From Spartinivicinus ruber (lineage in GTDB: Bacteria; Pseudomonadota; Gammaproteobacteria; Pseudomonadales; Zooshikellaceae): a stretch of DNA of 64,000 bases. The stretch's first letter is position 1. Each line of letters opens with the position of its first letter. A model generated the notes under the pieces. The model saw only the letters and a list, made by a program, of their open reading frames with translations, searched no databases and was not told the origin of the DNA. The translations under genes and the position numbers were made by a program. Positions 4,844 through 24,430 of this stretch are shown one piece after another. The DNA lies in contig NZ_CP048878.1 in the NCBI RefSeq assembly GCF_011009015.1, positions 6,295,001 through 6,359,000 on the forward strand, written 5' to 3'.

Positions 4844-4864
4844 ATTCTGAAAAAAACCAAAGCC

Positions 4865-5887
4865 ATGCAAATTGACCAGTTTAAAAAAACTCCCATAAAG
4901 CCACGCCCGGCTCAACCTGCAGTTATAGACAAAAACAAATACATTGATGCATCTACAGGTTTTGTTTCTATTGTAGAGGCACCTGATCAGGATATGGTTT
5001 TGTCAGACTATATCCAGTCACAAGCCAGTGAATTGAACAAGCTATTACTAGAGACGGGAGGCATTTTGTTCAGGGGATTCCCTGTGCGAAAGGCACTTGA
5101 TTTCCAGGCAGCTGTTAACGCATTTGGAAACCCCACTCTCCCATATTTTGAGAGAGCAGCTGTTCGAAAAGAAGTCGTGACAGGGGTTTTCACTTCAACA
5201 GAGTTCTCACCAACAGTCTGGGTGGATCTACATCATGAAATGTCCTTCGCAAGATGCATACCCGCTCAGATCTTTTTTTATGCAGATACGATTGCAGAAA
5301 CCGGTGGAGAGACTCCTGTTGCAGATGAATACCGCTCTACTGCAATGATTGATGAGGCTGTTAAACGCGAGTTTCTGAAGAGAGGGCTACGTTATACACG
5401 AAACTTCAGACCTGATGTAGATATGGATTGGCGCTCTGCTTTCCAAACTGACGATCGGGAAAAAGTTGCGGAATATTGCAGAGAAAACGCCATTGAATGG
5501 CGATGGTTGGGAGAAGAACACCTTCAAACCATTCAACAGCAAGCAGCCTTCGTCCGTGACCCGCAAACAAGTGAGCTGTTGTTTTGCAATCACGCTCATA
5601 TATTCCATCCTGCGGCTATGCCGACACCTTTAAGGGAGGCGCTAACGGAAACCTATGGAGCTGGGAACCTGCCTCGGAATGTCACTTTTGGTGACGGTGC
5701 CACCATACCAGACGAAACGATCCTGCATCTTCGGGAAGTCTACCAGAAGAGCACTCTCTTGTTCCCCTGGCTATCAGGGGATGTACTGCTTTTGAACAAT
5801 ATTCGCTGCCTACATGGTCGGGCTCCTTTCACAGGTTCTAGGACAACGTTGGTCAGCATGACTGGTTTGATTGAGAGGAATATATAA
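4865..5887 (+). CDS. TauD/SyrP-like Fe(II)/2-oxoglutarate dioxygenase 2
   Basis: A 340-residue paralogue-like neighbour of the preceding oxygenase, same family and layout but clearly diverged. The iron ligands read H123-H-E125 (LHHEMSF) and H317 (CLHGRAPFTG), with R326 as the 2-oxoglutarate-binding arginine. FRGF occurs near residue 69 and CNHAHIFH at 241-248. Its stop codon directly abuts the ATG of NRPS 2, so the two are translated from one message. Two oxygenases for two adenylation domains suggests that each residue, or one residue twice, is hydroxylated. Which enzyme acts on which carrier domain is inference. Confidence 0.88.
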   Translation: MQIDQFKKTPIKPRPAQPAVIDKNKYIDASTGFVSIVEAPDQDMVLSDYIQSQASELNKLLLETGGILFRGFPVRKALDFQAAVNAFGNPTLPYFERAAVRKEVVTGVFTSTEFSPTVWVDLHHEMSFARCIPAQIFFYADTIAETGGETPVADEYRSTAMIDEAVKREFLKRGLRYTRNFRPDVDMDWRSAFQTDDREKVAEYCRENAIEWRWLGEEHLQTIQQQAAFVRDPQTSELLFCNHAHIFHPAAMPTPLREALTETYGAGNLPRNVTFGDGATIPDETILHLREVYQKSTLLFPWLSGDVLLLNNIRCLHGRAPFTGSRTTLVSMTGLIERNI

Positions 5888-8800
5888 ATGATCACTAATG
5901 AACTTCAGAACCAGACGCATGCGGTGGTTGAAGGTTTCCCCCTGTCACCTGTACAGGCAGGTGCACTAGCCGCTTACCAGGATCGGCATCGTGACAATGT
6001 GTGGATTGAATGTGCATGGGATTCACCAGCTTCTGTTCAGGAGGTGCGCACCAGACTGGAGGAAGCGGTCAGTGCACATGGAATTTTTTCCGTTCGCATT
6101 CATATTGAGCAATTTTCTGGGGAAAGTCTTCAAGTGCTTGGTGAAGGGCAGATTAGAATTGAACTGGTGGAAGACCGGGATATTTTTGACAACCTTCTTT
6201 CACAACGGTTTGAGCTGACAGGTGTCGAGACACTCAGAGTTGCAATGTTGGTTAATGCTGATGGTTTGATCCGTCTGGGACTCTCTGCACCTCCCTATAT
6301 TACTGATATTGATGGCCTATTGCGTTGCTTGGGAAAAGACCTTCCCACTGAGGAGCTTATGTTCCAGCATTTTTCAGAATGGTGTCTTGAGCAAAGCGGC
6401 AGTGGAATGCCTCCGAGCATCGCAAGCAGTTTAGTTTCCTTCAGGCCAGCCTTAGGCAACCCTGAAGCATATCGCACCAGCCAAGTAGCCAAAATAATAA
6501 CTAGTGATCAGCTCCTTTCAGATATACAAGTTGTGTCAGCTACTTACTCAGTCCTTATGCCAGTTCTGGAAAAGAGTCCGAATGGTCATCAGTGCATCAC
6601 AGTTTCAGCTGATGGCCGCTTTTTTGAGGATTTTGGCGTTATGGCAGGGCCTTTTAGGGTTGCTGTCCCTCTGTTGCTGGAAGCTAAGCAAGAAATAGGT
6701 GTCAATGACCTTACTGGAAGGGTCAAAAAGATTCTGGCGGAAAATACTACCAAGATACAGATATCTGGAATGGTCCATACCAAACCACAGCCCTGCTTGG
6801 TAACTTCTGTTTCCTGCCCCGCAACTCATGAAGTTTTCGAAGATGCCAGTATCAAGCTGGAAACAGGCGAACAGGCGGAGCTCTCCATTCTGATCACTCA
6901 GACTTCGAATAGCCGCAACATTCAGGTGGCTTCGACACTTGCTGATGTGGACGATGCTGGCCTGGAAGCTCTTGTACGAGCTATTGCTGATGCCTTGGGG
7001 CAAATGGAAGATTCTTCTTGCAGTTTTAACCTTGCACAACTGATTGGCTGCGACCGCCCAGACTTTCCGGCTGTTGCGTCAACACGTAAAACCATCATCG
7101 ACCTATTCAGGGAAACCATCAGTCATATTCCGGAAGAGGTTGCCTTTATAACGGATGAATACAGGTATCATTTTTGGGAGCTGGACCAGGAATCGGAGGC
7201 GCTGGCGGCACGTCTCGCTAAAGAGCATGCCCCCGGTAGTAGGATTATGATTTTTGCGGACCGGTCCTTTGACGCTATGGTTTCCATGTTTGGAGTCTTG
7301 AAAGCAGGAATGGTTTGCGTTCCAGTTATGCAAGAATATCCTGACAGAAGGATTCTTGACATCCACCGCCTGTCTGGCGCAATGGGTGCGGTAGCAGAGC
7401 CGTCAGAACTGGAACGCGCACGGCGTTTAACCGGTGGAAAGGTTCTGGCCGCCCGGGGGCATGCCCCCCAGCAGAAAGGAGAATTGGTACAGGCATCTTA
7501 TGATGCGGAAAGTTGCGCTTATATTCTTTTCACTTCAGGATCAACCGGCCATCCCAAGGGTGTGGCGGTGACTCATGCATCCGTCAGTAACCTTCTAAAT
7601 GCCTTGAAAAACCGGATTTATGCAGGAGCCACAGGGATTTTGCGTATGTCAGTCAATGCCCCGCTTGCGTTTGATGCTTCCATGAAACAGTTTTTCCAGG
7701 CTGCAATAGGTAGAACGATTGTTCCGATTCCGGCTGATGTCCGTCGTGATCCAGAGTCCATGATTGAGTACGTGGAAAGGATGGAAATCGAAGCTCTAGA
7801 TGTCACGCCAACGATTCTCAAGGCCATGATCGCAGCCGGCTTCGGTCCAGATAAATGCGCGATGCCTCGCTGGATTTTGGTCGGTGGTGAAGCTATGGAC
7901 CAGGAGCTATGGGATATCGCACGTGCCTGGCAGGATTGTGAGGTCTGGAATGTCTACGGCCCAACGGAAGCCACGGTGAACACACTGGTCGCCCGAGTAA
8001 AAGACTTCTCGGTACCAACCCTAGGCTATCCGCTTGAGAATATCCATGTGGCCTGCGTCGATGAAAATGGTCTTGAAGTTCCTGTCGGCGCCACTGGGGA
8101 GCTGATAATCAGCGGAGCCGGCATTGCTCAAGGATATGTCGGTGCATCGGAATCCGAGCAGGTGCGCTTTTCCAGGTCTGGAAGCGGTGCAGCCACTTAT
8201 TTATCTGGAGACCTAGTGCGAAAACAATCCAATGGTAGCTACGCATTCGTCAGCCGATGTGATGATCAAGTGAAAATTGCAGGTCAGCGTATGGAACTCG
8301 GTGAGGTTAAATCCTGCCTTGTTGAGATGCCAGAAGTTAGCGATGCAGCTGTTATTATCGACAAAAGGATGGATGGAGCCCCCCGCCTGGTGGCAGCGGT
8401 CGTCACCTTGAACAGTGGCATCCAGTTAGAGGAAAAAGATGACTATTTGGTTGTTGATCTGCCGACTGGACACAAGGTGGCCAGTGTTAACGTGAACGAG
8501 ACCAACTATCAGTTTAAGGAGATTTTCGAAGACCGGATCTATACCAGTCCTGATATAAGATATCCAAAGGATGCCGTTGTGTTCGATGTGGGGGCGAATA
8601 TCGGCATGTTCAGTATGTTTGTGGCACAGAATGTTCCCCATGCGAAGATCTTCGCTTTTGAACCACTAGCCCCGATTCGAAAACGTCTTGAAAGCAATGT
8701 GACTCGTTATGTGCCTAATGCGAAGGTGCTTCCCTATGGGCTGTCAGACCATAAGGGGGAGGTGGAGTTCACCTACTATCCTGGCTATTCGATGATGTCT

Positions 8801-11800
8801 AGCCGCTCCGATGATGCGGATGCCGCTATGGAGAAATCCGTCATCCGAACGTATCTGTCTAATGCGGCTGATGGTGGTGACGAGTCGGCTGCCATGCTCC
8901 ATGATAACCTCGAAAAAGTGCTTGAAGGGCGTTTCGACGCAGAAACGCATGCCTGTCAATTGAGGACACTATCCTCAGTGATTGATGAACTGGAGTTGGA
9001 GTATATCGATATTCTGAAAATCGATGTTCAACGTGCCGAGCTGGATGTTCTCAAGGGGATCGAGGCACGTCATTTCAGCAAAATTCGATGTGTGTCCCTC
9101 GAGATTCATGATGACCCAAAGGGCAAGACCTCAGGTAGGGTTAAAGAGGTTTCTGATCTTTTGGAAGGTGCAGGCTTTATCGTTAAGACCTCTCAGGATG
9201 AATATCTAATAGGCACTGACCGCTGGAACTGTGTTGCCTACCGTCCTGTAGGAGCTGAAAGAGATACCCGGGAATATGTGGAGATTCCTATCACACAAGG
9301 CAAAGTGGATGTACCTCTAAATACTCAGGAGATTAGAGACCGGTTGGCCAAAAAGTTACCCGCCTATATGATTCCGGACACAGTGCTTACTGTTGAGGCA
9401 CTTCCTATGACTGCACAGGGTAAGCTGGATAAGTGTGCCTTGTTGGATCTCGCGGATAGGGAAGAAAGCCATCCTTTGGCGATGTCTGGAGACAACCCAG
9501 TATTGTCAGGCCAGCCTGCTGTCATGAATGACAAGGTGGGCTCTAGGTTGTTCGTGGTTCACAATATGCTTGAGGTCTGGCGAGAAGTACTGCGCAGGCC
9601 TGGTCTGGGAGAAGATGATGACTTCTTCCACAATGGCGGAGATTCAATTCGTGCGATCTTGATGCAGTCAAAGCTGCGTAAACTGGGAATTGAGATCAGT
9701 TTGAGGGACTTGAACGCCAATCCGACGGTAACCACCCTGGCGGATATTGTCGCCGAGCCTGCTTCGGAGCAGAGTAACCTAGCTTTGCAGGAAGAAGAGG
9801 ACCAGGCCATAGCCAGTTTGCTGGAGATTTGGCGTATGATTTTGCGTAAACCTGATCTTGGGGAGGAGGACGACTTTTTCCACAATGGTGGGGATTCAAT
9901 CCGAGCAATCCTGATGCAGTCCGAAGCACGGAAAGCAGGTATTTCCATCAGTCTACGTGAGTTGAACAACCAGCCAACCGTTGCCGGTTTGTTGGCCACT
10001 TCAAAAGGTGCCGTTAAATCGGCACTTGAAGCGACTTCCGCCAAGGTTCCTGAAAATTCATCAGGAGGCATTGAATGGGCCAGGAAGCCTGGAAATGCAA
10101 GTTCTTGGGTGGCATCAGGGATGCAGCGGATGATGTTGACTGCTTCCATGATCCGGAATGACCCCCAAGTTTACCATAATGCGACTGTCACACCTGTATT
10201 GGTGCGATACCGTCATGAATGTTTTGCAGATGTTCTTAGAGCGCTTCGCAGGGCGCATCCAATCCTAAAATCACGCTTGGTGTTTAATGAAGCTGGCATG
10301 TCGTTTGAGATTGATCCAGCTCTGGAAAATGCTGGCTTTGAATATCATGACTTGACAGAGGTTGAATTTGAAAAGGCCAACCAGATCATTCAGGAGGCGG
10401 TGTATGAGGAACGTTCGACACCATTCAACCCCCATAAAGGGGATTTGGTCAGGTTCCAGGTGTTTGAACGCGCTGTCGATCGGTTTGATATCCTGGTTGC
10501 AGAGCATCACGCTGCATTGGATGGCCTCAGTCTGAATGCGATGATCACGGAACTTGTCCGTCGATATATGGGGCAGCCGGTTGAGACTTCGGACGATATT
10601 GCGGTGTTCGAAGCCTTGGCCAGTGATGAGACTGCGGCTGGTAAGTCCAATGACAGTCGCTGTTTCTGGCAGAAAATGTTTGTTGGAAAAACGTCTTCAG
10701 AACCTGTTGTACCTGTCAGGTCGGTCAGTGACACAACGGATATGCATCAGGTAGATGTGTTGTCCTCTGCTGAGGCGTATGATGCCATCGGTCCCTATTC
10801 CCGTCATCTTGGGGTCTCTACAAAGGCTTTGCTTTTCGGGCTGCATGCAAGCGCTATGTCCGTAGCATTGGGCAATCGGCCATCCAGCCTTGGTTGCGTA
10901 TATTCACTGCGGCCTGAAGTAGAAGGGTCTGAACTAGCAATTGGGATGTTTTTGAATGTCTTGCCAGTCCCTCTATCGGAATCAGGAGATTTTGTAGTCG
11001 ATGCAAGGGCATTTGATGCTTTTGATCGCCAAGTCTTCACTCACAAAGCAATATCACATGAGCAATTGTCCCATTGGATAGGTGACCATGCGGAGATCGA
11101 TAGTATATTCAACTTTATCCAGTTCAATAAGCCAGATGAAAGTAATGGCGATTATCACCAAGTGGAAAACCGCTACTTCGCTGTGGATGCAATGATGCCT
11201 ATTGCGGTTGATTGGGATTTATCTGGCAACAGACTGACAGTTGGTTTTCAATATGATGCCTGCAAATTGGATTCTACAATTGCGAAGCGAATAGGTGACG
11301 AGATTAAAAACTCCGTCGATCAGTTGCTGAAAGCTAATGTGAGCAATACCAATGACTTGATTGCGGCCCAGGTCCTGAAGCATGTTTCCAAAATTGGTGA
11401 ATGTAGGGCAGAACCTACGGATTGGCTTTGTGATTTGGGATTTTCCTCCTTGCAGAGGGTCCGGCTGGCTGGTGCTTTGATGGAGCAAATGTCCTGCAGG
11501 TTTGCACTGCCGGAATTTGTGATGCTGGAAACCGTGGAGGCGATTATTGAATATTGCCAGGTCTATCTCACCTTGCGCCATGTGGGCTTCAATGAGTTGA
11601 CTACTGAGCGTGTAGATAAACCATCCGCGCGCGTAATTGGGTTCCAACAGGTTGGTGTAGCTCCGTCAGTCCTGGATCCGTGGTGCGATCTGTTGCCCAA
11701 GGATGTGGCGCTACATGGTCTGCGTTATCCGGACTTTGATAATCTTCCTGATATCCCATTCCAGGTTCTGATTCAGGCACTAGCTAAGGCGTTGCATCCC

Positions 11801-12301
11801 CTGGCGGACGTGCCGTTAGTATTTGTAGGAAGTTGCTTCGGGGCTGTTCTGGCCTATGAAACTGCACGGCTGCTGCAAATCGAACCCGTTGCGATGATTG
11901 TGATCGGGTCCGGTGCTCCCAACCCAGATGGTCCTGCACCAGGCTATCATTTGTTGAGTGACCAGGAGCTAAAGGATGAATTGCGCAGACTAAAAAGCAT
12001 GCCAGAGCATTTCCTGGATAATAATGAAATTCTAGCCCCTGTCTGCAAAGCTCTGCGAGGTATGTCAAAACTGGCAACCAGTTATGAAAGTGAGCTGAAA
12101 CCATTGAAGGTGTGCCAGGTTGTATCGATCTGGCCTACTGACGATATTACCGTTTCTAAAGAAGGCATGGAAGAATGGCTGACATTGACTAAGGGTGAGT
12201 TCACCAGCTTGGAAATTGCTGGTGAGCATGCGGTTCTGATAGATGATCCAAAGGTGGTTTTTGACCGTTCCGGCATAAGGAGTTATCTAGAGCTGAGCTG
12301 A
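5888..12301 (+). CDS. NRPS 2: C*-A(FkbM-MT)-PCP-PCP-C-PCP-TE
   Basis: A 2137-residue terminating synthetase. Residues 15-375 form a C-like domain where HHxxxDG is replaced by YITDIDG, so no catalytic His is present. Adenylation domain 400-1195: LFTSGSTGHPKG at 548-559, VYGPTEATVN, A8 near 788-807, A10 lysine K1179. It is split after A8 by an FkbM-type methyltransferase (about 850-1120: VVFDVGANIG, FAFEP, ILKIDVQRAELD, LEIHDD). My by-eye specificity code is D-A-K-D-L-G-V-V-N-K, close to the known glutamate code. Twin carriers (S1253, S1337) share DDFFHNGGDSIRAILMQS. The C domain at about 1403-1815 has an intact HHAALDG (1540-1546). A third carrier has LGFSSL (S1854). The thioesterase (1912-2137) has GSCFG with C1983 as nucleophile and H2114. 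A GAGAGG lies before the ATG. Confidence 0.95.
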   Translation: MITNELQNQTHAVVEGFPLSPVQAGALAAYQDRHRDNVWIECAWDSPASVQEVRTRLEEAVSAHGIFSVRIHIEQFSGESLQVLGEGQIRIELVEDRDIFDNLLSQRFELTGVETLRVAMLVNADGLIRLGLSAPPYITDIDGLLRCLGKDLPTEELMFQHFSEWCLEQSGSGMPPSIASSLVSFRPALGNPEAYRTSQVAKIITSDQLLSDIQVVSATYSVLMPVLEKSPNGHQCITVSADGRFFEDFGVMAGPFRVAVPLLLEAKQEIGVNDLTGRVKKILAENTTKIQISGMVHTKPQPCLVTSVSCPATHEVFEDASIKLETGEQAELSILITQTSNSRNIQVASTLADVDDAGLEALVRAIADALGQMEDSSCSFNLAQLIGCDRPDFPAVASTRKTIIDLFRETISHIPEEVAFITDEYRYHFWELDQESEALAARLAKEHAPGSRIMIFADRSFDAMVSMFGVLKAGMVCVPVMQEYPDRRILDIHRLSGAMGAVAEPSELERARRLTGGKVLAARGHAPQQKGELVQASYDAESCAYILFTSGSTGHPKGVAVTHASVSNLLNALKNRIYAGATGILRMSVNAPLAFDASMKQFFQAAIGRTIVPIPADVRRDPESMIEYVERMEIEALDVTPTILKAMIAAGFGPDKCAMPRWILVGGEAMDQELWDIARAWQDCEVWNVYGPTEATVNTLVARVKDFSVPTLGYPLENIHVACVDENGLEVPVGATGELIISGAGIAQGYVGASESEQVRFSRSGSGAATYLSGDLVRKQSNGSYAFVSRCDDQVKIAGQRMELGEVKSCLVEMPEVSDAAVIIDKRMDGAPRLVAAVVTLNSGIQLEEKDDYLVVDLPTGHKVASVNVNETNYQFKEIFEDRIYTSPDIRYPKDAVVFDVGANIGMFSMFVAQNVPHAKIFAFEPLAPIRKRLESNVTRYVPNAKVLPYGLSDHKGEVEFTYYPGYSMMSSRSDDADAAMEKSVIRTYLSNAADGGDESAAMLHDNLEKVLEGRFDAETHACQLRTLSSVIDELELEYIDILKIDVQRAELDVLKGIEARHFSKIRCVSLEIHDDPKGKTSGRVKEVSDLLEGAGFIVKTSQDEYLIGTDRWNCVAYRPVGAERDTREYVEIPITQGKVDVPLNTQEIRDRLAKKLPAYMIPDTVLTVEALPMTAQGKLDKCALLDLADREESHPLAMSGDNPVLSGQPAVMNDKVGSRLFVVHNMLEVWREVLRRPGLGEDDDFFHNGGDSIRAILMQSKLRKLGIEISLRDLNANPTVTTLADIVAEPASEQSNLALQEEEDQAIASLLEIWRMILRKPDLGEEDDFFHNGGDSIRAILMQSEARKAGISISLRELNNQPTVAGLLATSKGAVKSALEATSAKVPENSSGGIEWARKPGNASSWVASGMQRMMLTASMIRNDPQVYHNATVTPVLVRYRHECFADVLRALRRAHPILKSRLVFNEAGMSFEIDPALENAGFEYHDLTEVEFEKANQIIQEAVYEERSTPFNPHKGDLVRFQVFERAVDRFDILVAEHHAALDGLSLNAMITELVRRYMGQPVETSDDIAVFEALASDETAAGKSNDSRCFWQKMFVGKTSSEPVVPVRSVSDTTDMHQVDVLSSAEAYDAIGPYSRHLGVSTKALLFGLHASAMSVALGNRPSSLGCVYSLRPEVEGSELAIGMFLNVLPVPLSESGDFVVDARAFDAFDRQVFTHKAISHEQLSHWIGDHAEIDSIFNFIQFNKPDESNGDYHQVENRYFAVDAMMPIAVDWDLSGNRLTVGFQYDACKLDSTIAKRIGDEIKNSVDQLLKANVSNTNDLIAAQVLKHVSKIGECRAEPTDWLCDLGFSSLQRVRLAGALMEQMSCRFALPEFVMLETVEAIIEYCQVYLTLRHVGFNELTTERVDKPSARVIGFQQVGVAPSVLDPWCDLLPKDVALHGLRYPDFDNLPDIPFQVLIQALAKALHPLADVPLVFVGSCFGAVLAYETARLLQIEPVAMIVIGSGAPNPDGPAPGYHLLSDQELKDELRRLKSMPEHFLDNNEILAPVCKALRGMSKLATSYESELKPLKVCQVVSIWPTDDITVSKEGMEEWLTLTKGEFTSLEIAGEHAVLIDDPKVVFDRSGIRSYLELS

Positions 12302-14446: not shown

Positions 14447-16039
14447 TTAGATTAGATTAATTTTATAAGCAGCTCGCGCTACCCAAGATTCCAACGCTTC
14501 ATCCTCGTTTTTAATCTTTTTATCTGGGTGGTCCAAGTAATAACGAGAAACTGTCTGCTCAGTGATATTTCTGCGTTCCCATTTAACGGAGTTGGACATC
14601 AGGTCTTTGAGGATTTGGTCTTTTAAATTGCACTCTTCAGCAGGGTCTGCTCGATATATAAGAGTTGATAGGCTTTGCTCTGGTTTAAGCTCAATTTCCA
14701 GTAAATATACTATGGTATTTTCATCTCGCTGTAAGGTGACGAAGGAGTATTGCCTTTCACGACCATCAATTAAATGTGCTGTTTTACAGTTACAACGAGG
14801 CACGTTGCCTGTTTGTACAGTGCTTTTCCAGCTATGTTTTTGCTCGAGTTGTTCTAATAGTTTGTGAAACAGGGTGAATTTGTCTTGTGCTTCTACCAGG
14901 TCAGATTCAATTCGAGTGTCAATGTCTGCTCGTGGTACTGTACCAGTCGCGTCAGACTGAGTAATACCAACGCTATCTTCTAACTCTTTTTCTTCTACAT
15001 CAGACTGTTCTCCTGCTGGCAAAAATTGAACATGCCTTGGTGAACGTTTCATGTCGATTTCAAGATCAAAATGTAAGCCGGCAGGAGAGACTGTTAGAAG
15101 GCGGTGTTTATTAGTTGGCCTGGGTGTGGCATCTGGATCAATTTCATTTTTTTCTGAGGCTTTAGTTTGCTCTGTAGTCCTTGTTCTATCAGTTTTATTT
15201 TCGCTATCTGTGATCACAATTTGGTCATCAGGATGACTGAACCAGACCTTTTCTAGTGGAGGAGACGGTAGTCCCGCAATAGATTGAATCCTCCGAATAT
15301 AATGATGATTTTGCTCTCCATCAGTGAAGCCTGACCAAGAGATTTCACAGCCTTCAAGACTGGGTGGTGTGAAGTTAAATGACCACCGTTCTACTCCTGA
15401 TTCAATACGTGCCTCTTTGTTTTGATGGCGGTAAATAGAACAAAAGCTGTTTTCTGCATCATTGTTAAATAACAACCATGTAAAGTACTTTCTGTATTCC
15501 TGGTTGTTAAGGTATGCAATAGGAATATCTGGCATCAAGTTGATAGTACCTTCCCAGTTAGTTTTGCTCACATTAGCGATTGATCGTGTAGTGCCTTCTA
15601 ACATGGCCACACGAACCAACTCTGCCGAACAGAGGTGAAGTCGGCGGGCGAGCTCAAGAGAGGGTAACCAGTAAATCTTGTGTTCACTTTCAATACAAAA
15701 TACAACTTGGTCTTTTAATTGATCATAATATTCACTCATTCGTTGAAGGCTACCAGGCATGTCTTTGTATGTTTTCTGCTGCCATAAGTGTGTTGGTGGT
15801 AAAATAAATCGACCTCTGTAGCCGGTTATAGCCTGGTTATCACTGGTGATTGGGAAAATACTGCCAACAGTCAGTGCAGGAATGGCATCAATGGGAAATG
15901 CTTTTCGTAGAGGCTGATTTTCTGGTGTTAAAAAATAGGCAACTATTTTCCAGCCTTCAGATGGCTTTCTGTAAAGGTCACCCAATAACAATAACTTTGA
16001 TCCTTCTGGAATGCCTTTAAAATATGTATTACTTGCCAC
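14447..16039 (-). CDS. tnsE: Tn7-like TnsE, target selector for mobile plasmids/replicating DNA
   Basis: A 530-residue protein close in length to Tn7 TnsE (538). Recognisable shared blocks are the LPSLELARRLHL segment (about 125-136), SGVERWSFNFTPPSLEGCEI in the middle, and the C-terminal EALESWVARAA. In Tn7, TnsE directs insertion into conjugal plasmids and lagging-strand DNA by contacting the beta clamp. The middle (about 275-370) is low-complexity and acidic, as in Tn7 TnsE. It is last in the tnsABCDE operon, overlapping tnsD by 11 bp. The conserved C-terminal half is the DNA-binding part in the family. Its intact frame suggests the element kept the plasmid-targeting route. Confidence 0.88.
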   Translation of the reverse strand: MASNTYFKGIPEGSKLLLLGDLYRKPSEGWKIVAYFLTPENQPLRKAFPIDAIPALTVGSIFPITSDNQAITGYRGRFILPPTHLWQQKTYKDMPGSLQRMSEYYDQLKDQVVFCIESEHKIYWLPSLELARRLHLCSAELVRVAMLEGTTRSIANVSKTNWEGTINLMPDIPIAYLNNQEYRKYFTWLLFNNDAENSFCSIYRHQNKEARIESGVERWSFNFTPPSLEGCEISWSGFTDGEQNHHYIRRIQSIAGLPSPPLEKVWFSHPDDQIVITDSENKTDRTRTTEQTKASEKNEIDPDATPRPTNKHRLLTVSPAGLHFDLEIDMKRSPRHVQFLPAGEQSDVEEKELEDSVGITQSDATGTVPRADIDTRIESDLVEAQDKFTLFHKLLEQLEQKHSWKSTVQTGNVPRCNCKTAHLIDGRERQYSFVTLQRDENTIVYLLEIELKPEQSLSTLIYRADPAEECNLKDQILKDLMSNSVKWERRNITEQTVSRYYLDHPDKKIKNEDEALESWVARAAYKINLI

Positions 16040-17570
16040 TTTTTCCTGTGCCTTCTAGTTTCTTAATTATTGTTTTAACCTTTTTTGTTAGCTTTTCTCT
16101 GTGAAGTCCAGCTTTTCTTTCAAGCTTCCAAACTATCACATTCTCACCACTTTTTGTCAGCTCTTGTGCTTCTTTTTGAAGTCGACGGATTTGATAGTTC
16201 TCAGTACTTTCACAGTGCTTATTTAGCCACTGATTAGACTTTGGTAAATCAGCCAAGTGTTTTTCGATGGTGCTTGCCATGTCTAGTTGGTGAATGAGAA
16301 ATGTTTTAGTTAATTGGGGGTAGTTCTCTGATTTGATCAGCTCAGCAAGCAGAGCTTTTAGTTGTCTTATGGTTGAAAGGTCCCTTTTTCGCCAGTTAGC
16401 GCCATAGTGTTGTTTGGGACTAACTCGCTCAGGCTTGTTTTTTCTGAGCCATGCTTGGTCATGTTTATAAAGCCAGGCATAAAGGGCTCCGCCAACTGTT
16501 TGTTGCCTTAGCGCTTTCACTCCCATACCAGGGTGTTTTGTCATGACCTTTAACCACTGTTTTCGCTTATCTTGAATAGCAGCAGTTGATGGCTTTTTAG
16601 TTGAAGCCCTTGGTTTAGCTATTTCTGGTACCTTTGAAAACTGCTGCACTTGTTCAATAATGTCTACTGCATCATCTTCAGGAAGAAAACTTTGCCAAAC
16701 TAAAGTATGGCGTAGTGGGTGGAAAGACTTTCTGTGCTTTCGAAACAGGTTTACCAACCATGAGTCGCTTTGTTCGAGGCAATACTCCACCTGTAGTCTA
16801 AATAAGCTATTCTGCCAATCTTGGACTACATGTTTTACGATTTGGCTGTGATTGATACGACTACCTTTAATCATGCCACGGTGAGTGGCTATCCAGCGGT
16901 AGAATTGAGTCCATTGCCACTGGCTTATTTTGTTACCAATAGGTAGTGATAGAAGCTGATTGATAAGCTCGATAACAGCCCATTCTTTTTTTGATAAGTG
17001 AATGGTTGAATTTGGTAAACCGAACATTTTTTGGGGTGGCAAAACATAAAGGTGTTTAGCCTTAGGGTGAAAAAAGATTGCTGTTTCAATTAAAGGCACA
17101 CTATGTTGATGGCAAACTGCTATACCTGGGATTTGGTGAATACGTTTCCAGTAGGCTTCGCCATATTGCTGCTGTTGGTCTTCTATACAGTAGGGGCAGT
17201 GGCGAAAGTAGGTAGGGGTTTTTATTGATGAGGCTGCAACACCAAGCCTCGTATGGATATTTCCTCCATAAGTAGACTTCATTGAAATTAAAACTTTATC
17301 GGAATTCTCTGGTGCAATAAATGGCAAATATAATGGGGCTAGTGTGTGATTCTGAATGATTTCGTCAACACTCGTTTGCCAGACTGTATTTGTTGATTTT
17401 ACTAATTCAGGTAGGTGACTGGGAAAGTCTGGAACTGCCACAACTGTTTTGCTGTTAAATAGGTCTTGGATGATCGCTTTTTGGTTTTCTTGCCCTGTGT
17501 GAGCCCCATATCGTGCAATTAGGCTGTACAATAACTCATCTGGATAAGAGCAAGGAAAATAAGCAACCAT
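16029..17570 (-). CDS. tnsD: Tn7-like TnsD (TniQ family), attTn7 target selector
   Basis: A 513-residue TniQ-type protein, matching Tn7 TnsD (508). It begins with the family signature FPCSYPDELLYSLIARYGAH. A zinc ribbon (about residues 133-175) shows HCPYC and a later CHQHS, and repeated HTH-like regions follow to the C-terminus. TnsD binds the 3' end of glmS and recruits TnsC, giving the orientation-specific insertion just downstream; this element sits exactly there. It starts 2 bp after tnsC and overlaps tnsE. Full length with intact motifs argues for a functional or recently functional protein. Confidence 0.92.
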   Translation of the reverse strand: MVAYFPCSYPDELLYSLIARYGAHTGQENQKAIIQDLFNSKTVVAVPDFPSHLPELVKSTNTVWQTSVDEIIQNHTLAPLYLPFIAPENSDKVLISMKSTYGGNIHTRLGVAASSIKTPTYFRHCPYCIEDQQQQYGEAYWKRIHQIPGIAVCHQHSVPLIETAIFFHPKAKHLYVLPPQKMFGLPNSTIHLSKKEWAVIELINQLLSLPIGNKISQWQWTQFYRWIATHRGMIKGSRINHSQIVKHVVQDWQNSLFRLQVEYCLEQSDSWLVNLFRKHRKSFHPLRHTLVWQSFLPEDDAVDIIEQVQQFSKVPEIAKPRASTKKPSTAAIQDKRKQWLKVMTKHPGMGVKALRQQTVGGALYAWLYKHDQAWLRKNKPERVSPKQHYGANWRKRDLSTIRQLKALLAELIKSENYPQLTKTFLIHQLDMASTIEKHLADLPKSNQWLNKHCESTENYQIRRLQKEAQELTKSGENVIVWKLERKAGLHREKLTKKVKTIIKKLEGTGKSGK

Positions 17571-17572
17571 AC

Positions 17573-19207
17573 TTACCCCGATAACATATCTTCCACCGGA
17601 TAAATAAGTCCACGGGATTCTATTGACTCGTACATTGTTCCAGTTTTTAGTTCAAAGACGTTTCTAAGGTCTTCCTCAGGTAGTTGCCCCCAGTCTTTAG
17701 TCTTTTTATTTTTAGCCTTTTGTTTTGGTATGTTTGCTTGTGCCGCCTTTTTGGTTGCTAGTTCTGCTGTTGTGGAATGAATTAATTGGATAACTGATAT
17801 ATCAGGGGTACGCCGTAAAGCATCAGTAACTAGCGGAACAGCAATATCTTCATTTACTCCCATTTCTATCAGCATGGCAATAGCGGATTTGGCTTTGTCT
17901 GTTTCTTCTGGTACACCAGTATCTATCCGGGAGTGTTGCTCTGGCTTAATAGCTGTTAAATGGTCAAAGGTGTTGAGTAGTTTTCCTTCTATTTCAGGCA
18001 TGAAAAGATCACCGTATTCGGATATTTTCTTTTTGTTACCCTGGCGAAGTGCATTTAGCATGGAGTGAACTGTTGTGAATTCGTCATTGTAAACTTGTTT
18101 AAGTAGATCAACGGTAATGAATTCATTACCTACCAATATTGCCCGGGCTTGAGCCAAGCACATCAGCTTAACCACAATATCTAGAATCCCTTGAGAAAGG
18201 TCATACAAGGTATCTCGAATGATTGTTGTGAGTGGTTTAGGCTCTTTAAGCCACTGGAATTGCCACAGCTCAGATATAAAGTCATCCCAGCTCTCGTCTT
18301 TGACCATCCTGTCCCAAAACACACTACCTTCTCCGGCGGAGCGTCGAGCTTTACGAAATTCACCAGCAAAAATAGGCAGGGCTTTTGGTGTTCCAATCAA
18401 TACAACTGATACACCAATGGTATTCACTAGTTTTACGAGAAAGTTGATCATTTTCTTCTCGCCACCACCTTTTGCTAAATCAAGGTGTTGAAATTCATCT
18501 ATAACCAGTAAGCCGACTGCGTGAATCAAAGATAATTGTGCGGCGCTTGTAATTAGATAACCGATACCTTTTCGAGAGCCGCCATACTTTTTCAAGTAGT
18601 TTGTTCCTAGCCGCCTGTCCAGGGCCATAAAAAAGCTCAGGCAGAACTCGGTCAGCGTACCATCATGAGGGCAGTCTACTTTTAACCAAGGTATTTGAAT
18701 CATGTTGTACTCTGGGTGGTATATTGCTTTGGGATAAGCTTTAAGTAATCGGTTAAAGGTTGTCGTTTTGCCTGAGCCAGAAATTCCAATCACGGCCATG
18801 GATGATGCAGTAGAGTCCACATCATCATGCATATAAGCATCTAAGTCTTTTTCGACAATTCTTTGATAGCCGTTATTTAAGTGCTTTTTAAAGCTGGCAT
18901 GTTTAGGGTTTCTACCCAGATAGCCTTGTCGGATCAGGATTGATAATTTTCTTTCAAGAACAATGTGAGAAGAAAGTGGCTCAAAAAAATCTTTAGTTAA
19001 CCTGGCAATTGCATGGACTCTAATGTGGCCAGGAAGATTCTTTTCTGATTCTTGAAACACCGGCCTTTTACTCAGTAGCTTTACAACACTGGCTGTATTC
19101 ATGATAGGAGGCAAGGCACTGATTAGCGGATTATCCGCATATTCAGCTAGCCCAGGATTAATGTAGTCTGCTTCGGGTATTTTGAAGTCTTGATGGTCGT
19201 TATTCAT
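17573..19207 (-). CDS. tnsC: Tn7-like TnsC, AAA+ ATPase regulator
   Basis: A 544-residue AAA+ ATPase (Tn7 TnsC is 555). Walker A GISGSGKT is at 141-148 and Walker B LLVIDEFQHL begins near 233; VVLIGTPKA supplies the sensor-1-like strand. TnsC links the target-site proteins TnsD or TnsE to the TnsA/TnsB transposase and blocks insertion near existing copies (target immunity). The Lys/Gln-rich C-terminal tail (about 500-530) is where Tn7 TnsC contacts TnsA. It overlaps tnsB by 8 bp and is followed after 2 bp by tnsD. Confidence 0.93.
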   Translation of the reverse strand: MNNDHQDFKIPEADYINPGLAEYADNPLISALPPIMNTASVVKLLSKRPVFQESEKNLPGHIRVHAIARLTKDFFEPLSSHIVLERKLSILIRQGYLGRNPKHASFKKHLNNGYQRIVEKDLDAYMHDDVDSTASSMAVIGISGSGKTTTFNRLLKAYPKAIYHPEYNMIQIPWLKVDCPHDGTLTEFCLSFFMALDRRLGTNYLKKYGGSRKGIGYLITSAAQLSLIHAVGLLVIDEFQHLDLAKGGGEKKMINFLVKLVNTIGVSVVLIGTPKALPIFAGEFRKARRSAGEGSVFWDRMVKDESWDDFISELWQFQWLKEPKPLTTIIRDTLYDLSQGILDIVVKLMCLAQARAILVGNEFITVDLLKQVYNDEFTTVHSMLNALRQGNKKKISEYGDLFMPEIEGKLLNTFDHLTAIKPEQHSRIDTGVPEETDKAKSAIAMLIEMGVNEDIAVPLVTDALRRTPDISVIQLIHSTTAELATKKAAQANIPKQKAKNKKTKDWGQLPEEDLRNVFELKTGTMYESIESRGLIYPVEDMLSG

Positions 19208-21308
19208 CAGACTCCTCCTGATTCAGAAGGTCTTTTAAGCGGGTAGGGACTTTAAAGCTTGCTCTGTTTTCTTCTGTTGGTCGAAGTGGAGTCACATTTT
19301 TTGGTGTTTCTTTGTTACTAGGTGGCAGTTTTTGCTGGGCTTTTTTAGTTCGCTCATAATGACGTTCATTTCTCTTGTTTTCATTAATTCCTTTCACCCG
19401 TTCTGACTTACTTAACGACGAAATATTGGGTTTTGCTAGCTTCGACTGATTAGCAATCTCCTCAAGCTCTGTGGTCAGATTCACTAAACCAGCTCGTTTT
19501 TTAAGTTTTGAGGTTGTTGCAACCTCTGCCTTAATATCATTCTTAAGCCAAACCTCCCAAATGGTTAAATCTCGGTACTCTCGGCTACGTTCAGTTAATT
19601 CAGCTTCCATAAATTCAGAATATGAATCAGTTGGGCGTATGTATATTTTATTTGAAAAGTAAGGGTCATAAGCAACTGTAACTGATTTAAGTCCAGAGTA
19701 ATTACCTTCAAACCACCCCATTTGAATTGCTTTTTTGCAGGTGTAGTAGCAACCAAATAATTTGACGCCATGTTCAGTGATTGTCGCTTTAGTGTGAGGA
19801 AATAAGTTTACTTGAACCAGTTTTTCTGGCGGGCGACGTAGCCGACCAGTACGGTACTCAATGCCCCAGTTCCAAAGTGTTACCGGGTTATGAGGCAATG
19901 ATGCTGGCATATCTTCGTCAGGATCGTATTTTGATAAACAATGCTCATTGTTATAAAAGAGCACAATCTTGATCATGAGCTGACTAAACTCTCGCAAGGT
20001 GTGTATAGCATCCTGACGGTAGTCTTTCCCATGCCGCTTTTTACCAATTGGGTTTTTGGTAACATAGCCTTCAACGAAGGGTTTAAACTTGGTCTGTATT
20101 GTTCGGAAATACCGTTCAACGATACCTTTCCAGTCAGCACGATAAGCCGGTGTATTCTCTATGTTGATGTGAAAAGCTTTGCTTAACACTTCCACATGCC
20201 TACCCATCATTTCACCTTTGTCACCAATAATGGTTTCCGGCAAACCAACGGATGGCCACATTTCTTCTGTTATATCGATATCAAATTGTTTGCAGTAGGC
20301 AACTTTGTCAAAAGCAGCATTAGCGATTGCTTCCATAGCACTTACCCAGGAAGGATTTTCCAGACCAATATACAAACCGACTATCATGCGGCTGAATACA
20401 TCAACGACTAAATAGATGGTTGGTCGACCAATAATACGCTCACGATCTTGAGTTGAGACCAAATAAATATCAGCAATGGTGGCATCTATTTGATAACGAC
20501 TACCTGGGCCTGATACTTCTGCTGTTGAGGTGTTAAGTACCGGTCGGAAGTCTTTCAAGTAATTAACTTTACCTTCTCGTTTTTTGGTTACCTCAATAGG
20601 GGAATACTCTTTTTCAAAAAAATATTTAAACTGTCGCTCAGTGGGGACTTCTAGCAGATCTTTGGGTTTACAAGGTAGTTTTACACCAAAAGCAATAAGC
20701 ATTTGGTTGTAGGCATAATCAAAGTCGTATTTATTTTCATTTAAATAACTTTTTTCAATGGCAACCCGAAAAATGCTACGAATATTATCGTCAACATTAA
20801 TACCGGTACCAGCTGACCGGGTTCTTGGAGCTCCACGTTTTTTCTCACCTGCAGCTCGAGTCTTACCTGCACCGCCACATTTTTCATAACGACCACTTAA
20901 TGCATTTTTGCACAGACCAAATTGCCAATATCGGCGTAACCACCGATAAATGGTTTGCTTTATTGCACCACTTTGTTTTTGCACTTGATCAATGAGAGAG
21001 CCCCGTTCTTTGCGAAGGTAAATAGCCGGTTGAGCAGAAATAATGTCTTTAATTGCAGCCCAGGCATTTTCTTGTACCTGTTCAGCTTTAGAGCCTTCTT
21101 TGGGTGCGGTAAGTGCAATGTGAACATAGGGGTCTTCGATTTTTTTCAAGGAACCGTTTGCCGTTTGATGCTCAAAGTCTGCTCGCTCTACTGCTTTGGG
21201 TAACGCATTTTCTGAATCAATATCTATCCAAAATATGATCTGTTTATTGGACCACAGCACTCTAATGCGACTGTCACCATATTGGTAAACATCATTAGGC
21301 ATAAACAT
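19200..21308 (-). CDS. tnsB: Tn7-like TnsB, DDE transposase
   Basis: 702 residues, the same length as Tn7 TnsB. The DDE catalytic triad can be placed at D275 (YQIDAT), D363 (IIGDKGE) and E398 (KGIVERYF); spacings of 88 and 35 equal those of Tn7 TnsB. Before it lie HTH-type DNA-binding segments (about 105-130, TIYRWLRRYW) and after it a beta-barrel region and a Lys-rich tail that contacts TnsC in Tn7. TnsB binds the repeated end sites and cuts and joins the 3' strands. The stop of tnsA overlaps the start by 14 bp. Confidence 0.96.
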   Translation of the reverse strand: MFMPNDVYQYGDSRIRVLWSNKQIIFWIDIDSENALPKAVERADFEHQTANGSLKKIEDPYVHIALTAPKEGSKAEQVQENAWAAIKDIISAQPAIYLRKERGSLIDQVQKQSGAIKQTIYRWLRRYWQFGLCKNALSGRYEKCGGAGKTRAAGEKKRGAPRTRSAGTGINVDDNIRSIFRVAIEKSYLNENKYDFDYAYNQMLIAFGVKLPCKPKDLLEVPTERQFKYFFEKEYSPIEVTKKREGKVNYLKDFRPVLNTSTAEVSGPGSRYQIDATIADIYLVSTQDRERIIGRPTIYLVVDVFSRMIVGLYIGLENPSWVSAMEAIANAAFDKVAYCKQFDIDITEEMWPSVGLPETIIGDKGEMMGRHVEVLSKAFHINIENTPAYRADWKGIVERYFRTIQTKFKPFVEGYVTKNPIGKKRHGKDYRQDAIHTLREFSQLMIKIVLFYNNEHCLSKYDPDEDMPASLPHNPVTLWNWGIEYRTGRLRRPPEKLVQVNLFPHTKATITEHGVKLFGCYYTCKKAIQMGWFEGNYSGLKSVTVAYDPYFSNKIYIRPTDSYSEFMEAELTERSREYRDLTIWEVWLKNDIKAEVATTSKLKKRAGLVNLTTELEEIANQSKLAKPNISSLSKSERVKGINENKRNERHYERTKKAQQKLPPSNKETPKNVTPLRPTEENRASFKVPTRLKDLLNQEESDE

Positions 21309-22152
21309 AAGCTGTTTTTCCTTTCAGCCAATGTTCAGAAGCTTGAATTTGATTAGACCTTAATGATCGATGATTAATATTCGACATATTCCAGTAAAAA
21401 GCTTGCTGAGCTAATAAATGACGCAAATAAAGTAAGTAAGTGCCACGTTTTACACCTTTATTTTCATCAAGGAGAGACATGACATGAGCTATTTTAGCTT
21501 CAGGGTAGGTTTGTAATGCTTTCCATATTTCTGAGAAAACCAGTTGTTGGTTTTGCTGATCCAATTCAAAGTTATATAAGTGTGGTATTAGCCATTTAAT
21601 ATTTTGAATGAGAGTTTTGGGTACCTCTTGTTCAGTAAATATAAACCACGAAAAACCTTGTGATTCCCAAAAATTTCGTTCTAGTTCTAGCTTTTCGATT
21701 ACCCGTTTATTTTCTAAATCTTTAGCGTACTTAACTGCAACTGCATGGGTTGTGATGATACCTTCCTGTTCCAGGTCGATAAGCAAGTCGGTTGTCATGA
21801 CTTGAAACACGCCTTTATAAGCTGGGTGTTTAATGCCAACCCTTTCAGAAATTTCCAAAGTCTTTTCGGGGTCTAAGGGAAACTGTTCTCGGATATCGAC
21901 TACTTTCTCAGACCAGTCAAATAGTAAGAATGCAGCAAGCTCAAGGTCGGATAGTAAATGAACAATTCGGCCATGGGTTATGGATGGTCGTCTGTGGACT
22001 CGCCCCTTACTGGGAACATCCTGAACTTTAAGAAAAGGCTTGTAGTACTTACCGTGTCCTTCACCACGACCTTCTTTGAAGCGCCTTATTATATTGGGCT
22101 TTAGCAGCTCTACGACGGGCTTTATGGAGGGTTCGAGAAATGAACGTCCAAG
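21295..22152 (-). CDS. tnsA: Tn7-like TnsA endonuclease, start codon not found (probable frameshift)
   Basis: TnsA cuts the 5' strands at the element ends. Homology is continuous in one frame from about 22083 to 21295: RFKEGRGEGHG, VQDVPSKGRVHR, HLLSDLELAAF, VDIREQFPLDP, GIKHPAYKGVFQVMTTD, VEKLELE-type helix. The catalytic residues match Tn7 E63 (SDLEL), D114 (MTTD) and K132 (VAVK). A TTG at 21858 is too late to be the start. Upstream the frame runs to a TAG at 22153-22155 without any ATG, GTG or TTG. A second frame encodes SRTLHKARRRAAKAQYN just before 22096, a plausible TnsA N-terminus, which suggests a one-base shift near 22084-22100. It could be a sequencing error, a real inactivation or recoding. 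Confidence 0.85.
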   Translation of the reverse strand, partial: LGRSFLEPSIKPVVELLKPNIIRRFKEGRGEGHGKYYKPFLKVQDVPSKGRVHRRPSITHGRIVHLLSDLELAAFLLFDWSEKVVDIREQFPLDPEKTLEISERVGIKHPAYKGVFQVMTTDLLIDLEQEGIITTHAVAVKYAKDLENKRVIEKLELERNFWESQGFSWFIFTEQEVPKTLIQNIKWLIPHLYNFELDQQNQQLVFSEIWKALQTYPEAKIAHVMSLLDENKGVKRGTYLLYLRHLLAQQAFYWNMSNINHRSLRSNQIQASEHWLKGKTAYVYA

Positions 22153-22187
22153 CTATGCCAACACTGTTAGCATAGCTCAGAATGGCC

Positions 22188-22216
22188 AAAGTATGATACT
22201 TTATTGTCTTTCTACA
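22188..22216 (-). repeat. right end of transposon A with a single TnsB-type site
   Basis: Read from the terminus inwards (minus strand) this is TGTAGAAAGACAATAAAGT followed by atcatacttt. It contains one caataaagtatcat-type site like the Tn7 TnsB sites (ACAATAAAGT core). No further site follows before the tnsA coding region, whereas Tn7 has four overlapping sites at this end. Confidence 0.75.
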
Positions 22217-22221
22217 ATAGT
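22217..22221 (+). repeat. 5-bp target duplication between the two stacked elements
   Basis: atagt lies exactly between the ACA end of element A (22214-22216) and the TGT start of the mini-element (22222). The same five bases recur at 22571-22575. Tn7-family insertion makes 5-bp duplications. Confidence 0.8.
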
Positions 22222-22372
22222 TGTAGATTTACAATAAAGCATCATACTTTTGAGCGTCGTAAGCCATTGATTTTACTAGAACAACTTTTCTGTGATCATT
22301 GCTAAAGTATCATACTTTTGTCGTCTTGTTTATGGATATTCTACATTATTCAAACAATAAAGTATCATACTA
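22222..22372 (+). repeat. left-end TnsB-type sites of the mini-element
   Basis: Forward sites at 22230-22251 (tacaataaagcatcatactt core), 22301-22319 (taaagtatcatactttt) and 22354-22371 (acaataaagtatcatac). Their spacing (about 50-70 bp) is like the three separated sites of Tn7L. Confidence 0.75.
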
Positions 22373-22504
22373 AGCATGTTCATTGAGCTTTAAAAGTTTG
22401 CCACATTTAAGTCTCAAACCACTTAAATACAGTGTTTTAAGAGCTTTCTATCGATACATTATTCATATATAACTCTTACTTTTAGAGCTTTTTTTGATCA
22501 GCAA

Positions 22505-22570
22505 AGTATGAGACATTTTTGTTTAGTATGATACTTTATTGTTTGTCACATACTTTAATGTCTTTCTACA
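22505..22570 (-). repeat. right-end TnsB-type sites of the mini-element
   Basis: Reverse-orientation sites begin near 22505 (agtatgagacattttt, the weakest), 22526 (agtatgatactttattgt) and 22548 (acatactttaatgtcttt), about 21-22 bp apart, and run into the terminal tctaca. Packed sites of this kind characterise Tn7R. Confidence 0.75.
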
Positions 22571-22575
22571 ATAGT
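22571..22575 (+). repeat. 5-bp target duplication next to glmS
   Basis: atagt directly follows the terminal ACA at 22568-22570 and matches 22217-22221. It marks the insertion point, 19 bp before the start of the glmS stop triplet region (stop at 22595-22597). Confidence 0.8.
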
Positions 22576-22650
22576 TGGTTATAATAGTTTTTTGCTACTC
22601 AACCGTCACTGACTTCGCCAAATTCCTTGGTTGATCCACATCTGTACCTT
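22571..22650 (-). other. attTn7: TnsD target in the 3' end of glmS
   Basis: In Tn7 biology TnsD binds the last codons of glmS and the element inserts about 25 bp downstream of the stop. Here 24 bp (22571-22594) separate the element end from the glmS TAG, and the glmS C-terminus (NLAKSVTVE) is intact. The exact limits of the binding site are inferred from the family. Confidence 0.8.
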
Positions 22651-24430
22651 TAATAATCGCCACATAATAAGACAGTAGCTGTAAAGGTACTGTGTAGATA
22701 ATGGGGGCGATGACTTCGGGGACGTCTTCAAGGTGCATCACTTTTACACCTTCGGAGTTGGCTAGTTTGGTGTGGGTGTCGGCAAATACGTAAAGTAATC
22801 CACCACGAGCGCGGACTTCTTCCATATTGGATTTTAATTTTTCCAATAATTCGTTATTAGGTGCCACTACGACCACTGGCATATCGGTGTCAATTAATGC
22901 TAATGGCCCGTGTTTTAATTCACCTGCCGCATAGGCTTCTGCGTGAATGTAAGAAATTTCTTTTAATTTTAAGGCCCCTTCCATAGCAATTGGGTATTGG
23001 TTGCCGCGGCCCAAAAATAAGCTGTGGTGTTTTTCACTGAACTCTTCAGCTAAGTGCTCGATGTCATTACTCAACTGTAAAACATGATTAATTTTATTAG
23101 GGACTTCTTTTAAGGCTTTAACTATTTCTGCTTCTTGCTCTTTTGATAAGCCTTTTTGTTTGGCTATAGAAGTAACCAACATTAATAGTGCAATTAGTTG
23201 AGTGGTAAATGCTTTAGTTGAAGCAACACCAATTTCTGCGCCTGCACGAGTCATAAAAGCAAGGTCAGACTCTCTCACTAATGATGAACCAGGTACGTTA
23301 CAGATAGAGAGTGATGCCATAAAGCCGGACTCTTTTGCTAGCCTTAAGGCAGCTAAAGTATCGGCGGTTTCACCGGATTGGGATATAGTGACAAATAAAC
23401 AGTTTTTAGGCACAAAAGATTTACGGTAGCGGAATTCTGAAGCAATTTCGACATTACATTGAATACCGGCGATTGCTTCAAACCAATAGCGGGCTACCAT
23501 TGCAGCATGATAGCTGGTACCACAAGCAATAATTTGTACTGCTTCTGCCTTGCTAAATAGTTCTTTGGCATTTGGCCCAAAGCTTTCTTCAATAACTTGT
23601 TTTTCACTTAAACGGCCTTCCAGCGTATTATTAATTGCTTCTGGCTGCTCGTGAATTTCTTTTAACATGAAATGGCGATATTTACCTTTATCGCCTGCAT
23701 CATGTTCTACAGAGCTTTCGGCTATTTCACGTTCTACTTGATCGCCATTGGTATCATAGACTTGAACAGATTGGCGGGTAATTTCTACGATATCGCCTTC
23801 TTCTAAAAACATAAAACGGCGAGTAACGGGTAATAATGCCAGCTGATCTGAAGCAACAAAGTTTTCACCAATGCCTAAACCAATCACTAAAGGGCTGCCA
23901 GAACGAGCAGCAATAGCTCGACTAGGATCACGACGGTCGATAACCATCATGCCATATGCCCCTTCAAGTTGATGAACAGTTTTTTTTACGGCTTCTAATA
24001 AGTTATTGCCATTGGATTTCAGTTCGTGGTGAATTAGATGAGCGATGACTTCAGTGTCTGTATCAGAGGTAAATTCGTAGCCACTTTGCACTAAGTAATT
24101 TCTTAGAATTTCGTGGTTTTCAATAATACCATTGTGGACAACGGCAATATCTTCACCAGAAAAGTGGGGATGGGCATTACGCTCACTGGGTTCACCATGG
24201 GTAGCCCAGCGGGTATGAGCAACACCAGTACCACCAGTTAAAGGGCCCAAACTCAAAGCATCAGCCAGCTCAGCTACTTTACCTAGCCGTCTGATTCGCT
24301 TTAGTTGGCCTTCATTATCAATGATGGCAACGCCTGCTGAATCATAGCCTCTGTATTCTAAGCGGCGTAGGCCTTCCACTAAAATATCTGCTACATCACG
24401 TTGCGCTACTGCGCCAACAATTCCACACAT
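22595..24430 (-). CDS. glmS: glutamine-fructose-6-phosphate aminotransferase (isomerising)
   Basis: 611 residues, the usual length. It makes glucosamine-6-phosphate from fructose-6-phosphate and glutamine, the first step to UDP-GlcNAc for peptidoglycan and LPS. MCGIVGA gives the N-terminal catalytic Cys of the glutaminase domain (1-240). Two SIS domains follow ([26 protein letters not shown]), and the C-terminus ends in LAKSVTVE, which also encodes the Tn7 target. It lies downstream of glmU in the same direction, 225 bp apart, as in relatives. The Tn7-like elements sit beyond the stop and leave the gene intact. Confidence 0.98.

Follow-up and report, generated by a model that had tools for sequence, protein, structure and literature searches.

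The window analysed here comprises 64,000 nucleotides of the Spartinivicinus ruber genome (G000:C1:6295001-6359000; G000 is the window's own genome, and G001 and G002 are congeners). Within it, a segment of 349 bp, hereafter the mini-element, lies between glmS and a large tnsABCDE transposon, element A (Table 1). Element A is about 26.3 kb long, is flanked by ATAGT and abuts the mini-element. Its right terminus is at 22216, where the letters directly before the ATAGT read TCTTTCTACA, and its left end is located outside the window at G000:C1:6290944, again preceded by ATAGT. The mini-element itself reads TGTAGATTTACA...TGTCTTTCTACA, with its left end at 22222 and its right end at 22570, facing glmS. 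An earlier note on this DNA had described a TGTAGA...TCTACA segment between ATAGT repeats adjoining the large element, and direct reading bears this out. The distance of 24 bp to the glmS stop given there holds only if the ATAGT is counted; from the right terminus without ATAGT it is 19 bp. The note had also found no gene in the segment, which is confirmed: only four open reading frames of at least 20 amino acids lie wholly within it, the longest of 29 amino acids.

Table 1. Positions of the features discussed in the text (window coordinates unless a contig is given; TnsB-like sites are predictions and are scored over 18 consensus bases).
Feature	Position	Strand	Remarks
tnsE of element A	14447..16039	-	Pfam TnsE_C
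tnsD of element A, attTn7 target selector	16029..17570	-	Pfam TnsD, TniQ; Tn7 TnsD match E 2.7e-52
tnsC of element A	17573..19207	-	AAA_22, TniB
tnsB of element A	19200..21308	-	matches Tn7 TnsB 7pik, residues 2-697, E 1.3e-148
tnsA open frame of element A, 286 codons	21295..22155	-	Pfam TnsA N and C domains for 21295-21858
Sole TnsB-like site found in right end of element A	22188..22207	-	terminus 22216
ATAGT common to right side of element A and left side of mini-element	22217..22221	.	direct reading
Mini-element, 349 bp	22222..22570	.	TGTAGA...TCTACA termini, flanking 5-bp repeats
LE1, left-end TnsB-like site 1	22231..22250	+	17/18
IHF consensus TAAGCCATTGATT between LE1 and LE2	22260..22272	-	at this place in 7 of 8 left ends tested
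LE2, left-end TnsB-like site 2	22299..22318	+	14/18
LE3, left-end TnsB-like site 3	22354..22373	+	18/18
Gene-free core of mini-element	22373..22500	.	about 130 bp; common to copy 2
RE3, right-end TnsB-like site 3	22503..22522	-	15/18
RE2, right-end TnsB-like site 2	22523..22542	-	18/18
RE1, right-end TnsB-like site 1	22542..22561	-	13/18; weakest of the mini-element
ATAGT on glmS side, target-site duplication	22571..22575	.	direct reading
glmS, 3' end is the Tn7 target	22595..24430	-	Pfam SIS, GATase; stop 22597-22595
Third ATAGT, left of element A	G000:C1:6290939-6290943		outside window
Copy 2, diverged mini-element split by an insertion sequence	G000:C1:5783236-5784642 (L031 7236-8642)		

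Being short, non-coding and bounded by terminal inverted repeats (TGTAGA/TCTACA), the mini-element has the appearance of a MITE. It carries no tnsABC genes of its own and thus lacks the autonomy of a Tn7-type transposon. The ATAGT on both of its sides has the form of a 5-bp target-site duplication, although the repeat belongs to element A as well and is therefore not independent evidence. A structured RNA was considered and discarded because no Rfam family came near its gathering score between 21900 and 22800; the two matches below threshold were miRNA models lying over the palindrome at the junction of element A and the mini-element. The core of the latter folds moderately better than shuffled sequences (z -2.1; 5 of 200 shuffles were equally good).

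TnsB-like sites were predicted by scanning with ACAATAAAGTATCATACT. The three putative left-type sites face right and start at positions 10, 78 and 133 of the mini-element, while the three right-type sites face left and start 10, 29 and 49 from its right terminus. The end asymmetry put forward in the earlier note is thereby upheld, and such asymmetric ends with multiple TnsB sites are those of a Tn7-type element. Allowing up to three mismatches, the 14-bp core of the site occurs eight times in the mini-element, a count that includes both strands of near-palindromic sites, whereas 2000 dinucleotide shuffles of the 349 bp averaged 0.15 and never exceeded 4. Furthermore, the full relatives G557 and G597 carry their right-end sites at exactly the same positions (10/29/49), and the left-end sites of element A, G048 and G557 start at 10/76/131. 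An IHF consensus is present in the same place in seven of the eight left ends tested, the mini-element included, with one of the G597 ends as the exception; when the bases of the LE1-LE2 spacer of the mini-element were shuffled 5000 times, it appeared in 23 cases. Two details count against a Tn7-type reading. LE1 and LE2 stand 2 bp further apart in the mini-element than in element A, and RE1 is no better than a chance match in the core. This additional match, at position 182 and outside any pattern, is equally strong (13/18), and the assignment of RE1 therefore rests on its place and not on its score.

The AT-rich, non-coding character of the segment would also suit ordinary host DNA, namely a terminator region after glmS that resembles transposon ends by chance. 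The density of sites far above that of shuffled sequences, the register in common with relatives and the flanking repeats all speak against such an origin, and comparison with the congeners refutes it; we give it practically no weight. In G001 and G002, the glmS genes of which are 95-96% identical to that of the window, no TnsB was found, the mini-element is absent and different DNA follows glmS, and no match to the segment was obtained in G001-G004. It was just this alignment, with strains free of insertions, that the earlier note had named as the means of overturning its own proposal. On the far side of element A, DNA 134 bp left of its left end matches G001 DNA at 83%, and this match ends about 1.6 kb from glmS. 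The interval between glmS and the shared DNA is filled by unrelated DNA in G001 and amounts to about 10 kb in G002. Since synteny with G001 resumes left of element A, it is this interval that element A and the mini-element occupy together.

The position relative to glmS is likewise that of Tn7-type elements. The neighbourhoods of 16 of the 20 TnsB matches outside the own genome were retrieved (G738, G684, twice, and G655, with 29-42% identity or partial matches, were left out), and 14 of these 16 include glmS. In all 14 the element ends 23-25 bp past the glmS stop, the corresponding value for the mini-element being 24; in three of them a second TGT occurs in the scanned range, and the TGT chosen was that which places the first site near position 10. 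None of the 14 has room for a mini-element between element and glmS. The mini-element thus sits as an attTn7 insertion does, about 25 bp past the stop and with its right end toward glmS. Stacking of Tn7-type elements at glmS is not new here; an example is contig G637:C117, where two tnsB genes and abutting element ends are found on one contig at glmS. By direct reading, the facing ends of these stacked elements are about 4-5 bp apart.

Element A, with a TnsABCDE set near in kinship to that of Tn7, is a related partner of the kind that a MITE depends on, but its right end differs from that of the mini-element and its competence is doubtful. Right-end TnsB-like sites number one each in element A, G629a and G048, two in G637b and three in G557 and G597; part of the clade may thus have a reduced right end (in element A the stretch concerned is 22122-22216). 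The tnsA frame is open and resembles its relatives from near the right end onward, yet the first ATG, GTG or TTG occurs only at codon 99 (position 21858); use of a non-standard start codon is conceivable. Because of the one-site right end and of a tnsA without standard start before codon 99, we regard element A as a doubtful helper for the mini-element. Its cargo includes NRPS-type genes at 805-12301 of the window (AMP-binding, condensation, thioesterase and two TauD-like oxygenases). A TnsB 64.5% identical to that of element A is encoded on a Vibrio halioticoli plasmid (AP024877.1, 139393-141495), and this plasmid is a possible vehicle for the Tn7 branch of element A.

Could the mini-element have been made from element A, by rearrangement or by internal deletion of a copy of it? 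The two have nearly identical termini, and an alignment of their left ends shows 116 identities in 166 positions. On the other hand, a recent derivative would show more than this 70% identity, the right ends are built differently (three sites in the mini-element, one in element A), and the core of the mini-element compares with the inner left and inner right parts of element A at shuffle level (76/300 and 86/300). Against the inner left end of G557 the core likewise scores at shuffle level (33 of 300 shuffles reach the score). Right-end architecture and core comparison thus largely refute derivation from element A, which we consider very improbable.

A BLAST search of the own genome returned two pieces of the left half of the mini-element 534 kb away. 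They belong to copy 2, a diverged second copy that is interrupted, within its counterpart of LE2, by an insertion with inverted ends, a gene for a 311-aa transposase with IS1595-family domains and a flanking 8-bp repeat, TAATACTT. When the insert is left out, local alignments on either side of it show 189/249 and 58/73 identical positions, spanning positions 6-266 and 261-334 of the reverse complement of the mini-element, with scores of 157 and 81 as opposed to shuffle maxima of 65 and 42 (500 shuffles). End to end, the values are 171/277 and 63/87, the left piece taking in about a dozen bases of the insert. Copy 2 contains the gene-free core of the mini-element and the same junction between left and right parts; the core alone aligns with copy 2 at a score of 52, while 1000 dinucleotide shuffles averaged 23.3 and did not exceed 42. 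The genome holds two copies, the second decayed. Copy 2 shows no recognisable termini or target repeats and is split by the insertion, which counts against a miniature Tn7-type transposon. Its flanks, compared with the glmS site, stay below the shuffle maximum, i.e. the two loci are unrelated. An acyl-CoA dehydrogenase gene ends about 1 kb away from it, at the point beyond which G001 and G002 no longer match. A role of this fadE-like gene as a TnsD target is not supported, as the left and not the right end of copy 2 is nearer to it. Downstream of glmS, contig G004:C20 carries what looks like the remnant of an A-type right end, with a palindrome and a single degenerate site on visual inspection. 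DNA with a match to an IS66 Orf2-like gene also occurs there, as does a stretch sharing 67-68% identity with the neighbourhood of copy 2 in the own genome.

The own genome contains no intact full-length match besides the mini-element itself. No full-length copy was found in sets of 94 other, 368 and 389 genomes, which overlap and in which at most seven, two and four candidates per genome, respectively, were scored, so that weak copies may escape; copy 2 was not among the matches listed in the 368-genome search. The proposal of the earlier note to look for copies with different flanks was thus met by one diverged, decayed copy in the same genome, and by no full-length copy elsewhere. A sequence-only model built from both copies, which both match by construction, detected no third copy in the own genome. 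Its five matches there with E up to 1 were the mini-element, the two halves of copy 2, the left end of element A (model positions 49-346) and one match at E 0.76; a faint likeness of the core to element A beyond the sites is possible on this comparison. Six of 390 genomes of the order, the own included, gave a match at E 1e-4 or better. Outside the own genome only part of the model was matched, by left ends in G048, G557, G629 and G074 and additionally by the right end in G557 (the G738 match was left out). Neither a blastn search of plasmids and phages with E up to 1e-5 nor a scan of viral contigs with two exact patterns, both of which match the mini-element of the window, yielded a copy. The lack of copies elsewhere in the sets searched counts against a miniature Tn7-type transposon. 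Five weak site matches in the own genome (L041-L045) were dismissed, as all five stayed below the maximum of 60 shuffles when compared with the mini-element, and a 24-bp match in G068, with no TnsB-like site found around it, was attributed to chance. Among genome contigs, the exact terminus pattern matched only in Paraglaciecola polaris (NZ_BAER01000035.1; L033 818-2237), in a stretch of 1.42 kb bounded by ends of this type, TGTAGATTG...CAATCTACA. This stretch has two sites at one end and one at the other, contains a 373-aa ORF and offers no room for a tns set; matching 5-bp repeats were not seen.

We propose that the mini-element is a natural non-autonomous miniature Tn7-type transposon, that is a Tn7-type MITE, and assign this reading a probability of roughly 0.7. 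The Tn7-like mini-element at glmS suggested by the earlier note is supported by the sites, the repeats, the congeners and copy 2. The most serious competitor, which we nevertheless consider unlikely, is that attTn7 received, after element A, another full Tn7-type element that then lost its interior in place, so that its left and right ends became joined, copy 2 being an independent or older relic of this family. The existence of just one intact copy, which counts against a miniature transposon, would agree with this, as would the stacking of full elements at glmS in G637, and an autonomous element with the core of the mini-element was not seen. However, the same gene-free core and left/right junction in copy 2 would not be expected from two independent deletions, and a deletion in place between LE3 and RE2 is not favoured since these repeats are inverted. 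Independent deletions would hardly leave one and the same core at two loci that are otherwise unrelated, and we therefore prefer a form that was already short when it moved.

A Tn7-type MITE of this kind would keep only the DNA needed in cis: the termini, three left TnsB sites with the IHF site, three right sites and about 130 bp between them. A related Tn7-type element would supply the Tns proteins in trans, whereupon the ends would be bound and paired and the segment cut out. TnsC together with TnsD bound at the end of glmS would then insert it 24 bp past the stop, right end toward glmS, with a 5-bp duplication. As TnsD-guided insertion lands next to glmS, element A probably came first and the mini-element second, if both used TnsD. 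The two successive insertions in one att site assumed in the earlier note fit the three ATAGT repeats but are not the only route to them. That note does not touch on the single right-end site of element A, on the improbable descent of the mini-element from element A or on target immunity.

Target immunity is a weak point of this reading. Tn7 strongly inhibits a second insertion where an element is already present, as stated in PMC11406308. Immunity from element A should discourage insertion of a second member of the family beside it. A different Tn7-type element that has since disappeared may have moved the mini-element; the immunity of element A may be weak owing to its single-site right end; or both may have travelled together. 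A further, improbable idea is that the mini-element lends element A a working right end. Element A has one right-end site and the mini-element three canonical ones, and the left end of element A and the right end of the mini-element would then form the only complete left/right pair around the tns genes, so that the stretch between them would be a mobile, ATAGT-flanked composite of 26.6 kb. The three identical ATAGT repeats fit this composite as well as two insertions. If true, a gene-free element would serve as the replacement end for a damaged full-size transposon.

Like Tn7 and Tn7-like elements at attTn7, the mini-element has asymmetric ends with three spaced left and tiled right sites, 5-bp repeats, and an insertion point some 25 bp beyond glmS, which the right end faces; unlike these, it has neither tns genes nor cargo and measures 349 bp in total. 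Engineered mini-Tn7 vectors keep only the two ends and receive the Tns proteins in trans. The mini-element differs from them in being natural and in having no cargo. The known bacterial MITEs and TIMEs use transposases other than that of Tn7. For Tn7 itself, four overlapping right and three left sites are given in PMC13370975. The same paper describes VchCAST as having three sites at either end, those on the left being 20 bp long, together with an IHF site between LE1 and LE2; activity requires every site except RE3 (PMC13370975). The predicted sites of the mini-element have the same layout as such type I-F3 CAST ends (VchCAST/Tn6677), whereas its neighbour, element A, is a tnsABCDE element and not a CAST, and no Cas gene was noticed. 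With its three left, three right and IHF sites, the mini-element would retain a counterpart of each cis requirement known from VchCAST. Bacterial MITEs and the Tn3-derived TIMEs are characterised in PMC10969869 and PMC4133298 as short, non-coding and transposase-dependent, with end repeats. The MITE review mentions 'Tn7' twice, one instance illustrating site specificity and the other being a reference (PMC10969869). Among the matches listed in a search of the open-access PMC literature, there was no report of a natural gene-free Tn7-type miniature element.

End-only derivatives of Tn7 are familiar as laboratory tools. If our reading is true, the safe site attTn7 is also used by gene-free Tn7 parasites, and surveys of Tn7 that start from tns genes would miss such elements. 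The mini-element would furthermore provide a natural test of which end signals are sufficient (three left sites, three right sites and IHF) and, as it sits against an element of the same family with a reduced right end, a natural test of target immunity.
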